Shown in pieces: positions 12,776 to 63,465 of a stretch of DNA of 64,000 nucleotides. The notes under the pieces are model-generated. The model was not told the origin of the DNA, did not search any database, and saw only the letters and a program-made list of their open reading frames with translations. Numbering within the stretch: position 1 is the stretch's first letter; each line of letters begins with the position of its first letter. The position numbers and the translations under genes are program-made. The DNA is from Bacillota bacterium. GTDB taxonomy: Bacteria; Actinomycetota; Aquicultoria; Aquicultorales; Aquicultoraceae. The DNA lies in contig JAIMBH010000006.1 of NCBI GenBank assembly GCA_023511485.1, forward strand, positions 1-64,000, given 5' to 3'.

Positions 12776-13708
12776 ATGATGAGAGCAAAGACGGTTACGG
12801 TGTTTTTGGTGATAGTCGCCTTAGCCCTAACGGCTGTAGGTTGTGGCCGGCAATCATCCGATGAAGACACCGCACCGGTGGCCCGAACGCAAAGCACGAA
12901 AAGGAATATTGAGATATCGCCCAGCGTTCCTTCTTCCGAGACGGGAGGGCCTGCTACTAGGGGCTCATCGGTAATAACATTTGAAAGCGACCCTGCAACT
13001 ATTCGGCCCAACAAAATAGTTCTCTTCGACAATGCCCATAAAGAACTTTTTACTCCATATGGAACCGGACAAACAGGATACTCCGAGATGCAGGCCATAC
13101 TCAATAAATACGGCTACAATGTCCGTATGAACACCGGGCCCATCACTGATCTGGTCTTAAAGGATGTGGATGCGGTCGTAATTGCCGGGCCGATGGCAGA
13201 TTTTACAGTGCAAGAGATAGATGCCCTTGCTCGTTTTGCTGAACTAGGCGGGGATATCTTGATAACCACGCATATCTCAGATACTGTTGAAGCCCTGGCA
13301 CAGCGCTTTGGAATCCAATTATCAAATGCTGTAATAGCGCAGTCCCATGATACTATAGAAAACAGGCCCAAGTGGTTTATAACCAGAAACATTGCAGATA
13401 GCCCAATAAACAATAACGTAACCAGCTTTGCTGTACTTGCCTCATGGGCTCTCAGGCCGAGGGGCGAGCATGCGATGGTTATCATATCAAGCGAGAAAGA
13501 TTCCTGGGCCGATTTGGAGGCCGATGATATATATAGGGTGGGAGAGCCTGTGGGGGCATATGGTCTGGCAGCTATTTCAAGTTACGGAAGGGGTAGAGTA
13601 GCTTTTTTTGGCGATGATGCGGTGTTTACCAATAGGGCACTGTCACTAGCAAGTAATCGCACCCTTTGCGAGAACATATTAAAGTGGTTCGAGGGCTCAA
13701 AAAAATAG
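12776..13708 (+). CDS. Lipoprotein with a DUF4350/glutamine-amidotransferase-like domain
   Basis: A 310-residue exported lipoprotein. The signal peptide VFLVIVALALTAVGC ends in a lipobox with Cys at about residue 23, followed by a polar linker (about 24-70). The rest is an alpha/beta domain: KIVLFDNAHKELF starts it, VDAVVIAGP and GGDILITTHISD are central strands, and GRVAFFGDDAVFTN lies near the end, as in DUF4350 and related ThuA/GATase-like sensor domains. No catalytic Cys is seen, so binding rather than catalysis is likely. It follows the YerC-like gene by 36 nt. The function is unknown. Confidence 0.75.
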   Translation: MMRAKTVTVFLVIVALALTAVGCGRQSSDEDTAPVARTQSTKRNIEISPSVPSSETGGPATRGSSVITFESDPATIRPNKIVLFDNAHKELFTPYGTGQTGYSEMQAILNKYGYNVRMNTGPITDLVLKDVDAVVIAGPMADFTVQEIDALARFAELGGDILITTHISDTVEALAQRFGIQLSNAVIAQSHDTIENRPKWFITRNIADSPINNNVTSFAVLASWALRPRGEHAMVIISSEKDSWADLEADDIYRVGEPVGAYGLAAISSYGRGRVAFFGDDAVFTNRALSLASNRTLCENILKWFEGSKK

Positions 13709-13844
13709 GAATTTTGACCCAAAATACCGCTAGATGTATGTTTTACTTTTCGTTCTCAGGGTATAATAGCATTTTAGAAGTCGCAACCTTTATGATTTAT
13801 AGCCTCGGCTACTTAGCAAAATAACTAATTCTACGAATTTTATG

Positions 13845-13869
13845 GTAATAGCTTGACAATAGCTATTAC
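13845..13869. promoter_or_regulatory. Inverted-repeat operator enclosing the -35 box of the seleno-SQR promoter
   Basis: GTAATAGC (13845-13852) and GCTATTAC (13862-13869) are perfect 8-bp inverted arms separated by 9 nt, and the spacer contains the TTGACA -35 hexamer. A dimeric repressor bound here would occlude RNA polymerase. The regulator is not identifiable; ArsR-type or other thiol/sulfide sensors are plausible from context only. Confidence 0.65.
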
Positions 13870-13881
13870 GGTTGATACATT
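13853..13881 (+). promoter_or_regulatory. Sigma-70-type promoter for the SQR/DUF1641 operon
   Basis: TTGACA at 13853-13858 and TACATT at 13876-13881, separated by 17 nt, make a good vegetative-type promoter. The next gene on this strand starts at 14212, so the transcript would have a leader of about 325 nt. A second candidate -10, TATAAT at 13762-13767, lies upstream without a well-spaced -35. Confidence 0.6.
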
Positions 13882-13889
13882 GTTAAATA

Positions 13890-13914
13890 ATATCCTAGTA
13901 TTCATCTAGGATAT
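13890..13914. promoter_or_regulatory. Second inverted repeat at the transcription start of the SQR operon
   Basis: ATATCCTAG (13890-13898) and CTAGGATAT (13906-13914) form a perfect 9-bp inverted repeat with a 7-nt centre. It lies immediately downstream of the -10 box, over the expected transcription start. It could be a second operator or an RNA hairpin at the 5' end of the leader. Its sequence differs from the -35 operator, so two regulators are possible. Confidence 0.6.
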
Positions 13915-14010
13915 AGTGAGATTATTCTCAGGGGATTTCAGCAGTAGGTTTGACTTTTACACCTCATCAAAAACTAAGATAAAGTAGCGGGTAAAAGGGT
14001 TTTCTGGCTT

Positions 14011-14063
14011 GTTACTAAAGCAGTCAGTAACCGGTTTTTAAAACTACTGTTAAAAGCCGGTTA
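14011..14063 (+). promoter_or_regulatory. Leader hairpins with attenuator-like mutually exclusive pairing
   Basis: TAACCGGTTTTTAA (14028-14041) pairs with TTAAAAGCCGGTTA (14050-14063): 14 bp with one G-U and an 8-nt loop, followed by TTTATAT. Just upstream, GTTACT (14011-14016) can pair with AGTAAC (14026-14031), which overlaps the left arm of the first stem. The two structures exclude each other, as in attenuators. The T-tract is weak, so termination is uncertain. The rest of the 13709-14211 gap holds no gene I can support; another short inverted repeat (ACGTTAG...CTAACGT) lies near 14161-14187. Confidence 0.45.
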
Positions 14064-14211
14064 TTTATATAGATTAGTGTATTTCAAGTCTTTTTTTCCA
14101 GGCATTGTTTTAGGAATATCGTTATAGGGTTTTCCTAAGGCCATGTTTGGCAACCAGGCACGTTAGTCGATAAACGGGCACGCTAACGTCTAATCAAACG
14201 GAGGGATGAGT

Positions 14212-15363
14212 ATGAGTAGAATTGTAATTGTTGGTGGCGGCAGCGCCGGTATCATGTCTGCCGCAAGACTTCGCAACACGCTCTCAATGAGCGAAGCGGA
14301 GATCACGATTATTGACCCGAGCGACAAACACATCTATCAGCCGGCTTTTACCCTGATAGCATTTGGCCTCGACGAGCCCGAGAATGTCGTAAGGCCGATG
14401 TCTAGTGTTATACCGGCCGGTTGCACCTTCATCAACGACGAGGTTGCCTCAATCAACTACGATGACCAGCAGGTTGAGACAAAAGGCGGCAGGAAGTTGG
14501 AGTATGACTACTTAATCCTTGCAACCGGTGCTACTTATAACTGGGATGAAATCGAAGGCTTAAAAGATAACTTAGGCAAAGATGGCGTCCACACATTCTA
14601 CACGCTTGAGGGCGCGATTGCAGTCAAGAAGGCCATTGAGGAGTTCGAGGGCGGCGACTTCACCGTTGTACAGCCGCCGATGCCGTTTAAATGCCCGGGC
14701 GCACCGATCAAGATGACGCTTATGGCAGAGGATTATTTCAGAAGGAAAGGCATTAGGAATAAAACTAACGTTACCTTAACAACAGCACTTCCATCAGTCT
14801 TCTCCCGCGAGCCCTATGCGACCAAACTGAATGAAATCGTTGAGGCTCGCAACATCAATGTTGTTCCCGGCTTTAACCCTGGTAAAGTAGATGTCGAGAA
14901 CAAAATTGTTAAGTCCTGGGAGGGTAAAGAGGTCAAATACGATCTAGCCGTTGTTATCCCCCATAATGAGGGCGAGGGCATCCATGAGGATACACCTGTT
15001 GCCGATCCAAGCAATTTTATCAAAGCAGATAAGCATAAATTGGTATCTGAGGCCTATGATAATGTCTATGCGGTCGGCGATTGCGCAAATTATCCTACCT
15101 CAAAAACTGGAGCCGGCGCAAGGAAACAGGCTGAGGTATTGGCAACTAACCTGGCTGCGAGGATAAGAGGACAGGAGGGTAAAGCTTATTACACAGGCCA
15201 CATTATATGACCGATCCTTACAAGGTTCGGGAAAGCCTTGTTCGCAGAATTTGACTATGAGAAGTCAATCTCTCCGGCGGAGGAAATGTGGTCAAACTGG
15301 ATGATGAAGGTCTATATGTTAAGACCTCTATACTGGAGTCTAATGCTTAGAGGGAGGCTCTAA
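14212..15363 (+). CDS. sqr: Selenocysteine-containing sulfide:quinone oxidoreductase-like flavoprotein (TGA at 15208 read as Sec)
   Basis: FAD-dependent disulfide-oxidoreductase-superfamily protein of the SQR branch, 383 residues if TGA 15208-15210 is decoded as Sec. The FAD dinucleotide motif VGGGSAG is at 7-13, the second FAD motif VGDCANYPTSKTG at 288-300, and the active-site cysteine Cys161 sits in PFKCPGAPIK, matching the essential Cys160 of acidophile SQR. In SQRs the partner cysteine lies near the C-terminus in a GH/GY-x-x-C-P/F-x-x-T-x-x-GK-x-L-x-x-F-x-Y block; here the block reads GHII-(TGA)-PILTRFGKALFAEFDY, so Sec333 replaces that cysteine. The frame then continues, without any shift, to TAA at 15361 through a tail (Y-W-S-L-M-L-R-G-R-L) typical of membrane-associated SQR/NDH-2 proteins. 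The start is ATG 14212, 6 nt after GGAGGG; ATG 14206 touches the RBS. The likely role is oxidation of sulfide to polysulfide with electrons to quinone. SQR family: firm; Sec: strong inference. Confidence 0.9.
15208..15241 (+). promoter_or_regulatory. UGA-Sec codon and bacterial-type SECIS hairpin in the SQR gene
   Basis: After TGA 15208-15210, bases 15220-15227 (ACAAGGTT) pair with 15234-15241 (AGCCTTGT): 8 bp with one G-U, closing a 6-nt loop CGGGAA whose second base is G. The loop begins 17 nt after the TGA. Bacterial SECIS elements are stem-loops directly 3' of UGA, inside the reading frame, with a G in the first two loop positions and about 16-37 nt to the loop; all of these are met. Confidence 0.82.
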
Positions 15364-15368
15364 AGCCT

Positions 15369-16658
15369 ATGGTGGACAATATCATGGAAGAAGAGGAGGT
15401 CATGCTAAGCGATAAGGCCGTTGCAATCGTCAATCAAGATTTGGTCTCCTTCGTGGAAACATTAAAAGATCTTGTGGGCCAGTTAGAGCCGCAGCTCAAG
15501 AAGCTCTCAAAAGAAGTGTCACCGGCGCTTAACAAACTCAAAACAAGCGTCGACAAAGAAGAGACGCTTGTGCTTCTTAATAAGCTCACAGCCAATACCG
15601 GCACTTTGCTTGAGTTAATCTCTTACCTTGAGGCTTTGACTGATCTAAAGAACCAGCTGGAGCCTCAGCTTAAAAGTATCGTAAAAGAAGTGCAGCCGGT
15701 AACAAATGCCCTTAAATCGAATTTGGATAAGGATGAAACTATTCTGCTGATAGAGCGGATGTCCTCAAATACCGGAACGCTGCTTGAGCTGGTGTCTTAC
15801 CTTGAGGCTTTGACTGATCTAAAGAACCAGCTAGAGCCCCAGCTTAAGGGAATCATGAAAGAGGTCTCTCCAGTCCTTAACAAAATCAAAACCAATATTG
15901 ACGCAGATGAGACACTGGTTCTTTTAGAAAGGCTTACGGCAAATACTGGAACATTACTTGAGCTGGTCTCGTTAATGGAAGCGTTTAATGACTTGCGCAA
16001 TCAGCTCGAACCTCAGCTTAAGGGAATGGCGAAAGAGGTCTCTCCAGTTCTTAACAAGATCAAAGCCAATATAGATAAGGACGAAACGCTTCTGCTTCTT
16101 GAGAAACTCACATCGAGCATGGGCACGATGATCGAGCTCATGTCGTACATGGAGGCTTTGACTGATCTAAAGAACCAGCTGGAGCCCCAGCTTAAGAAAA
16201 TGATGGCCGAAATCAGTCCGGCAGTGACCGCACTCCGCACGTTTGCGGAGGACGAAAAGACTGTAAAAATGGCGGTTGGCATGTTTAACACTTTGAAAGA
16301 TTTTGCAGCAGACGAGGAACTTCAAAGTGTTATAGCCCGGGCAAACAGCCTTAAAGGGCCAATCACCCAATTTATGGGCTGCATGTGCAGCAGGGTGAGC
16401 GAAGACGGCGAGGACGATACGACCACTGCTGAAGCGTCTCTGAACTCACTTATGAAGCTTACCCAAATCGCAAGCACACCGCTGGCTCAGAATATGGTAA
16501 ATACTATAGCAACTACCATGAAAGAAACGACCGATGCCGATATAAAACCGGTGTCACCGGTTAAGATGCTATCGGCATTTAGAGACCCGGATGTCCAGAG
16601 AGCCACGGGATTCCTGATCCACTTCCTAAAGAAACTTGGTCAGGGTTTAAAAGCTTAA
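15369..16658 (+). CDS. DUF1641-family protein with five tandem 58-residue repeats
   Basis: A 429-residue, largely helical, acidic protein beginning 5 nt after the SQR stop, so certainly cotranscribed. From about residue 29 it contains four full 58-residue repeats and a fifth, diverging one (29-86, 87-144, 145-202, 203-260, 261 on). The core is EALTDLKNQLEPQL, then KEVSPVLNKIK, then DETLxLLExLTxNTGTLLELVS. The C-terminal part (about 300-429) is the DUF1641 region, with MGCMCS and LSAFRDPDVQRATGFLIHFLK. DUF1641 proteins are often encoded beside SQR or formate dehydrogenase genes; their biochemical role is unknown. I infer a scaffold, or a membrane or partner-protein adaptor, for the flavoprotein. 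GGGAGG lies 11 nt before the ATG. Confidence 0.85.
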   Translation: MVDNIMEEEEVMLSDKAVAIVNQDLVSFVETLKDLVGQLEPQLKKLSKEVSPALNKLKTSVDKEETLVLLNKLTANTGTLLELISYLEALTDLKNQLEPQLKSIVKEVQPVTNALKSNLDKDETILLIERMSSNTGTLLELVSYLEALTDLKNQLEPQLKGIMKEVSPVLNKIKTNIDADETLVLLERLTANTGTLLELVSLMEAFNDLRNQLEPQLKGMAKEVSPVLNKIKANIDKDETLLLLEKLTSSMGTMIELMSYMEALTDLKNQLEPQLKKMMAEISPAVTALRTFAEDEKTVKMAVGMFNTLKDFAADEELQSVIARANSLKGPITQFMGCMCSRVSEDGEDDTTTAEASLNSLMKLTQIASTPLAQNMVNTIATTMKETTDADIKPVSPVKMLSAFRDPDVQRATGFLIHFLKKLGQGLKA

Positions 16659-62602: not shown

Positions 62603-63465
62603 GCCGGAGAGACTTCATTAAAATTTCCGGTTTAACGGCTGCCGGTATTGCGGCGGGCGGTTTAAATGCAAGCACTCCTGCCCTGGCAGAAACAAGGGGG
62701 ATTTCGGGCGTCGCAGAAAAAGCTCTGCTTAACGATCCCTCGAAATGTATCGGTTGTTTAAGCTGTGCAATTGCCTGCAAGAAATCCAACGGTTTGCCAA
62801 ATGTTTATAAGTATTCATCATTTACCGACGGCAGTACTTGGACCACCGTCAAACTCAAGAACAGCAGCTTGCAGGGGCAACCAGCTAAATACAACCTAAA
62901 AGTTCAGTGCATGCATTGCAGCAAACCAAGTTGCGCCGCCGTATGTCCGACAGGAGCTATCTATAGGCGAGACGATGGAATTGTCGTTATCGATCAGGAA
63001 ACATGCGTTGGATGCAAGTATTGCGTTCAGGCGTGCCCTTTCAATGTGCCGGGGGTAAGTTCTCAAACAGGCACATCGCGAAAGTGTACGCTTTGTGAAA
63101 ATCGTTTAAGGGAAGGAAAAATCACTGCTTGCGCAGAAGCCTGCCCATTAGGAGCGATACAGTTTGGTGACCGCGAGGTCCTGCTAACCAAAGCGGAGGC
63201 ACGCGTAAATGAGTTAAAGTCAAGCGGTTATACAAACGCGGCTGTGTTTGGCAAGCATGAACTGGGCGGTCTAAAAGTTCTCTACATTTTGCCCGACACT
63301 CCAGAGACCGTTGGGTTGCCGGCAAATCCCAGACTGGCTACCAGCGATTCGCTTTTGAAGTGGGCCGCAGGATTGGCGATGGCCGGTTATTTGGCTGCGT
63401 TTCCGCTGAGAAAGTTATTCCAAGATGAAGGTGACAAGACCGAAAACGCCATGAGGAAGGGGTGA
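62593..63465 (+). CDS. HybA-like Tat-exported ferredoxin subunit of the hydrogenase
   Basis: 290 residues. The Tat signal MGISRRDFIKISG is at the N-terminus. Four cysteine groups follow (CIGCLSCAIACKK, CMHCSKPSCAAVCP, CVGCKYCVQACP, CTLCENRLREGKITACAEACP), enough for four [4Fe-4S] clusters. A single hydrophobic helix near the C-terminus (LLKWAAGLAMAGYLAAFPL) anchors it in the membrane. It probably passes electrons between HysB and the membrane protein encoded next. GGAGGGAG precedes the ATG. Confidence 0.93.
   Translation: MGISRRDFIKISGLTAAGIAAGGLNASTPALAETRGISGVAEKALLNDPSKCIGCLSCAIACKKSNGLPNVYKYSSFTDGSTWTTVKLKNSSLQGQPAKYNLKVQCMHCSKPSCAAVCPTGAIYRRDDGIVVIDQETCVGCKYCVQACPFNVPGVSSQTGTSRKCTLCENRLREGKITACAEACPLGAIQFGDREVLLTKAEARVNELKSSGYTNAAVFGKHELGGLKVLYILPDTPETVGLPANPRLATSDSLLKWAAGLAMAGYLAAFPLRKLFQDEGDKTENAMRKG

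Follow-up and report, generated by a model that had tools for sequence, protein, structure and literature searches.

The gene at positions 14212 to 15363 (forward strand) of the 64,000-nucleotide stretch of DNA that was analysed, hereafter called the window, in all likelihood encodes a membrane-associated sulfide:quinone oxidoreductase (SQR) with selenocysteine (Sec) at its second redox position (U333), inserted by means of the sel genes of the genome and a hairpin, and it would belong to a clade that lies apart from NF049943, the Sec-SQR family already known, and that most likely acquired Sec separately. That the in-frame TGA at 15208 is truly recoded appears highly likely, and the support for Sec at position 333 is nearly as strong as sequence data without other evidence can give.

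A candidate selenoprotein with both redox positions of SQRs

Translation of the frame from 14212 gave only one internal stop, the TGA at 15208-15210 (predicted Sec333), which is followed by 50 further codons and the stop codon TAA at 15361-15363, resulting in a product of 383 residues. The ATG at 14212 is the likely start, since a ribosome-binding-site-like GGAGGG (14200-14205) lies 6 nt upstream, and since an alternative ATG at 14206, six bases upstream, is absent in the relatives G127 and G084. An open extension of 50 codons is unremarkable by itself, and it is the homology of the extension that is notable. The read-through protein scored over the cut-offs for PF07992 and PF21706 (FAD-binding Rossmann fold and SQR/FCSD domains) and matched human SQOR over residues 5-383 (E about 8e-69), which bears out the earlier proposal that the frame beyond the TGA encodes the C-terminal block of SQRs up to the TAA. 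This block of 50 codons (PILTRFGKALFAEFDY..., with a helical tail) is located at 15211-15360.

In the alignment with human SQOR, the TGA lies opposite the cysteine of 'TSCPLVTGYNRVILAEFDY' / 'TSCPLVTGYNR' (Cys379), and Cys161, the first redox cysteine (TGC codon at 14692-14694), lies opposite the cysteine of 'PVKCAGAP' (Cys201). Across 19 aligned SQR-like proteins 25 columns were invariant, and these include both Cys161 and the TGA/Cys column 333. Both redox-active positions of SQRs are thus kept, as Cys161 and a predicted Sec333, with Sec instead of Cys at the second, in agreement with the preliminary description, which had placed the TGA at the second redox cysteine opposite Cys161. Among solved enzymes human SQOR is the closest, rather than the acidophile enzyme used there as reference, whose alignment with the window protein breaks off near residue 318, ahead of the TGA. 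Human SQOR (PDB 6oi5, 6oi6 and 6mo6) is the best match both by sequence and by fold (E 6e-31 for 6oi6) and has the C-terminal block in common with the window protein; it differs in that it carries Cys instead of Sec, is about 31% identical, and is a mitochondrial CoQ enzyme. The AlphaFold model, made from six alignment rows, was good over the FAD part and unusable for the tail, with a pLDDT under 50 over residues 330-383 (the last 54 residues); the sequence of the tail, the part in which SQRs have amphipathic helices for membrane binding, does align with SQOR.

Conservation of the TGA codon and the downstream block

We searched 297 genomes of the phylum and all 12 available genomes of the order for homologues and found the window-type SQR gene in six genomes; a single scan of genome contigs gave six loci. 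Five genomes from two genera retain the TGA, i.e. the source genome G000, G127 (85% identity), G160, G352 and G020 (75%), so that it is not an assembly error. As the preliminary description had suggested looking for, Cys variants of the column were also present, with a TGC codon in the orthologue of G084 (82% identity) and in a paralogue of the source genome itself (G000:C1:22264-23415; 60% identity). The two Cys proteins share the domain and the tail with the window protein and differ from it by the TGC at the Sec column and a degraded hairpin. Downstream of the TGA, dN was 0.03-0.07 versus a dS of 0.7-1.7, and third positions carry most of the changes, so that purifying selection acts on the tail of 50 residues.

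TGA is not recoded genome-wide, since 6 of the 29 open reading frames of at least 300 codons in the window end in TGA as an ordinary stop. These cases, and a standard-code annotation that stops at TGA 15208, could suggest that translation simply ends at this codon in an SQR that is truncated or in decay, or that the TGA is a sequencing error, but this is hardly credible given that the TGA is retained in five genomes and two genera, that G084 has a Cys codon in its place, that a truncated form would be without one catalytic cysteine, and that the purifying selection on a tail with the SQR C-terminal block already contradicts it. Elsewhere in the window, the TGA at 63463, which also has a long open extension, was rejected as a recoding candidate: it marks the normal end of a gene for a 4Fe-4S protein, and the in-frame sequence behind it belongs to an NrfD-like gene with a GTG start (gene names were assigned by eye).

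In G084 (completeness 97%), selA, selB and tRNA-Sec were not detected, and together with the Cys version of the gene this would fit a switch from Sec to Cys upon loss of Sec decoding. However, the second SQR of this genome retains its TGA, which makes a missing contig just as likely, so that G084 (loci L010 and L096) represents either a recent Sec loss or an incomplete bin, the two being equally probable.

Selenocysteine machinery of the source genome

The source genome (2.37 Mb in 58 contigs, 100% complete) contains a tRNA-Sec gene (selC) with a TCA anticodon (76 bits) as well as selB (415 bits), selA (639 bits) and selD (368 bits). All four, for which a check of the genome had been proposed, are located on contig G000:C47, where they adjoin each other beside hypAB-like genes. 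None of the outcomes that the preliminary description had named as speaking against recoding occurred. The selD gene itself (L055:4260-5252, minus strand) also contains an in-frame TGA (HKSGUAAK), after which the standard open reading frame begins, and the SelD of the source genome is thereby a predicted selenoprotein too.

The source genome also carries a tRNA-Cys gene with a GCA anticodon (L002:1501-1593; G000:C21:40225-40313) that has an 8-bp acceptor stem and a long variable arm. It scored 57.4 bits in the tRNA-Sec search, above the gathering cut-off, and similar genes are found in G127 and G084; it resembles the selC-like tRNA-Cys genes of the literature.

A conserved hairpin downstream of the TGA codon

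Beginning 9 nt after the TGA there is a bSECIS-like hairpin at 15220-15241 (forward strand; ACAAGGUU-CGGGAA-AGCCUUGU) with a stem of 8 bp, a loop of 6 nt (CGGGAA, 15228-15233), a G at loop position 2, a distance from TGA to loop of 17 nt, and a minimum free energy (MFE) of -8.5 kcal/mol. The limits reported for bacterial SECIS elements are a distance from UGA to loop of 16-37 nt, a G within the first two loop positions, and an MFE of -7.5 or lower (PMC13188914). The hairpin is within these published limits, and the check for a bSECIS element that had been suggested before thus turned out in favour of recoding. This simple screen for a hairpin is passed by about 2.5% of all TGA triplets across the window, and the hairpin therefore counts only jointly with its conservation, which we chose as evidence since the folding z-scores of the hairpin alone were weak. 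A 12-codon window of synonymous conservation overshot the hairpin and diluted the signal, whereas a clear signal came from runs of nucleotides that are identical in all five genes with TGA. The longest run identical in all five genes is 23 nt and the next longest 12 nt, and the former (nt 1012-1034 of the frame from 14206) spans nearly all of the hairpin; of the degenerate codons with an invariant amino acid, only 26% keep one codon in all five genes. In the Cys gene of G084 three of the eight hairpin pairs are broken, and the corresponding region of the Cys paralogue on G000:C1 folds at -2.6 kcal/mol. In the genus g2 the loop is identical but the stem lacks its outer C-G pair, and folding of the isolated hairpin reaches only -4.5 kcal/mol, above the limit of -7.5.

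Whole-region folds of the g2 genus also contain an alternative hairpin nearer to the TGA (CCGA-UCC...GGU-UCGG), which is less favoured; we preferred the downstream hairpin because the alternative has a 4-nt loop without a G in the first two positions. An Rfam search at a lax threshold over positions 13700-15500 yielded no credible match.

Alternatively, a tRNA other than tRNA-Sec, such as a near-cognate one that inserts Cys or Trp, might decode the TGA and yield a mixture of truncated and full-length products. Read-through of UGA is a general phenomenon, and the tRNA-Cys with the long variable arm and the acceptor stem of 8 bp does score like a tRNA-Sec, but its GCA anticodon does not read UGA, the genome has a dedicated tRNA-Sec with a TCA anticodon in addition to selA, selB and selD, and the hairpin is conserved and lies at bSECIS distance, in keeping with insertion that depends on SelB. 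Together, these points make reading by such a tRNA very improbable.

Neighbourhood and likely function

Directly after the SQR gene, separated from it by 5 nt, lies a gene for a DUF1641 protein with tandem repeats of about 58 aa (15369-16658, forward strand), and this pair is conserved in relatives from both genera. The length of the DUF1641 protein varies between relatives (429, 370 and 196 aa), which suggests gain and loss of repeats. In the literature we found no paper that connects DUF1641 with SQR.

The gene product is predicted to be an SQR-family flavoprotein, for which SQR function is likely. The proteins of its clade stand apart from the characterised SQRs, with which they are 34-41% identical, the source genome already has two Cys-type SQR paralogues, and a DUF1641 protein of unknown function is always next downstream, so the recoded protein might be a member of the SQR superfamily that acts on another substrate, for instance as a polysulfide or selenide oxidoreductase or as a partner of DUF1641. 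Against this stand the retention of both redox positions and of the SQOR C-terminal block, and the fact that human SQOR matches far better than flavocytochrome c and NDH-2 by sequence as well as by fold; flavocytochrome c flavin subunits are not the closest match (E about 1e-22 versus 8e-69 for SQOR). We consider another substrate improbable, although clearly less so than reading by a near-cognate tRNA, and favour an SQR.

Relation to the known Sec-SQR family

The idea of a Sec-containing SQR is not new. A selenoprotein of COG1252 was predicted in Desulfosediminicola by deep-Sep in 2025 (PMC12013277), a 2026 review lists Sec-SQR with the motif HxxU after deep-Sep (PMC13188914), and NCBIfam contains the family NF049943, described as 'type III sulfide quinone reductase, selenoprotein subtype'. 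Consequently, the novelty considered in the preliminary description does not hold for Sec-SQRs as a kind of protein, but it may hold for the separate lineage to which the window protein appears to belong. The window protein scored 358.8 bits against NF049943 and its orthologues 352-358 bits, below the cut-off of 525 bits. A second TGA-containing SQR (GHATUFI...), which passes NF049943 with 556-607 bits, is carried by seven relatives from the bacterial family of the source genome and is absent from the genome of the window. The loci of this type in the relatives are L058:353-1576, L026, L095, L096, L024, L032 and L044, and where the flanks were read the gene lies in the vicinity of sulfur-relay genes, either DsrE and DsrH (L058) or TusA (L026).

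Both types are SQR-fold flavoproteins with a predicted Sec at the second redox cysteine, an HxxU motif, and a bSECIS-like hairpin after the TGA. However, the window protein is about 34-36% identical to the f1-family proteins that pass the cut-off, it has U-P where NF049943 has U-F after the Sec column, and it is located in another clade, apparently with a separate gain of Sec. In a tree of 44 proteins, calculated with the Sec letter left out and with the founding Sec-SQRs of Desulfosediminicola/Desulfobacterota not included, the two Sec groups were placed in separate clades, both of them well supported and both containing Cys relatives. This tree requires at least three changes, two gains and one reversal, and a single Sec clade was rejected by the AU test (p = 3e-70).

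A single origin of Sec would make the window protein merely a divergent member of NF049943, with Cys restored many times, and in its favour are the shared column, the shared HxxU spacing (GHIIU in the window protein and GHATU in the NF049943 type) and the occurrence of both types in the same bacterial family. The result of the AU test, the three changes on the tree, and a score of 359 bits against a cut-off of 525 argue against it, so that we regard a single origin as rather improbable, if slightly less so than another substrate. As the founding Desulfobacterota proteins stand outside the tree, independent gain is likely but unproven. Hence, the window protein would represent a second Sec-SQR lineage apart from NF049943, in which Sec was most likely gained on its own.

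Proposed mechanism and significance

Selenium is a better nucleophile and a better leaving group, and may resist irreversible oxidation. Insertion of Sec at position 333 would be carried out by the products of selC, selB, selA and selD together with the hairpin just 3' of the TGA. In human SQOR, Cys201 and Cys379 are joined by a trisulfide instead of a plain disulfide, and attack of sulfide on this trisulfide results in persulfides on both cysteines (PMC11039317). The outer sulfur then leaves Cys379 to an acceptor while Cys201 forms a charge-transfer complex with FAD, after which the freed Cys379 thiolate attacks the adduct, so that the bridge is rebuilt and FAD, and subsequently CoQ, are reduced (PMC11039317). 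By analogy, Cys161, next to FAD, and Sec333 would hold a sulfane-sulfur bridge that is attacked by sulfide, the outer sulfur would pass from Sec333 to an acceptor, and Cys161 would reduce FAD, with the resulting FADH2 reducing a quinone. In the role of Cys379, Sec333 could speed up the sulfur hand-off and the closure of the bridge, and it may withstand irreversible oxidation. The lower pKa and faster chemistry that had been attributed to a Cys/Sec pair may apply to such an enzyme.

On balance, we think it likely that one catalytic column of SQRs acquired Sec in two or more independent events, with both lineages present in one bacterial family and a Cys-S-S-Se or Cys-S-Se bridge at work, and that the natural Cys versions in close relatives allow a direct comparison. 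For annotation this means that genes of this kind will be called too short, ending ahead of a catalytic residue, unless exception models of the NCBI type are widened beyond NF049943. Electrons from sulfide reach quinone pools mainly by way of SQR, from bacteria to human mitochondria, and the chemistry of this enzyme relies on the very cysteine that appears to be replaced by Sec in the window protein. Natural Sec versions (G000 and G127) and a Cys version (G084) exist at 82-90% identity, so that the question 'why selenium?' can be tested in one enzyme, and the apparently repeated gain of Sec suggests that there is real selection on the second redox position.
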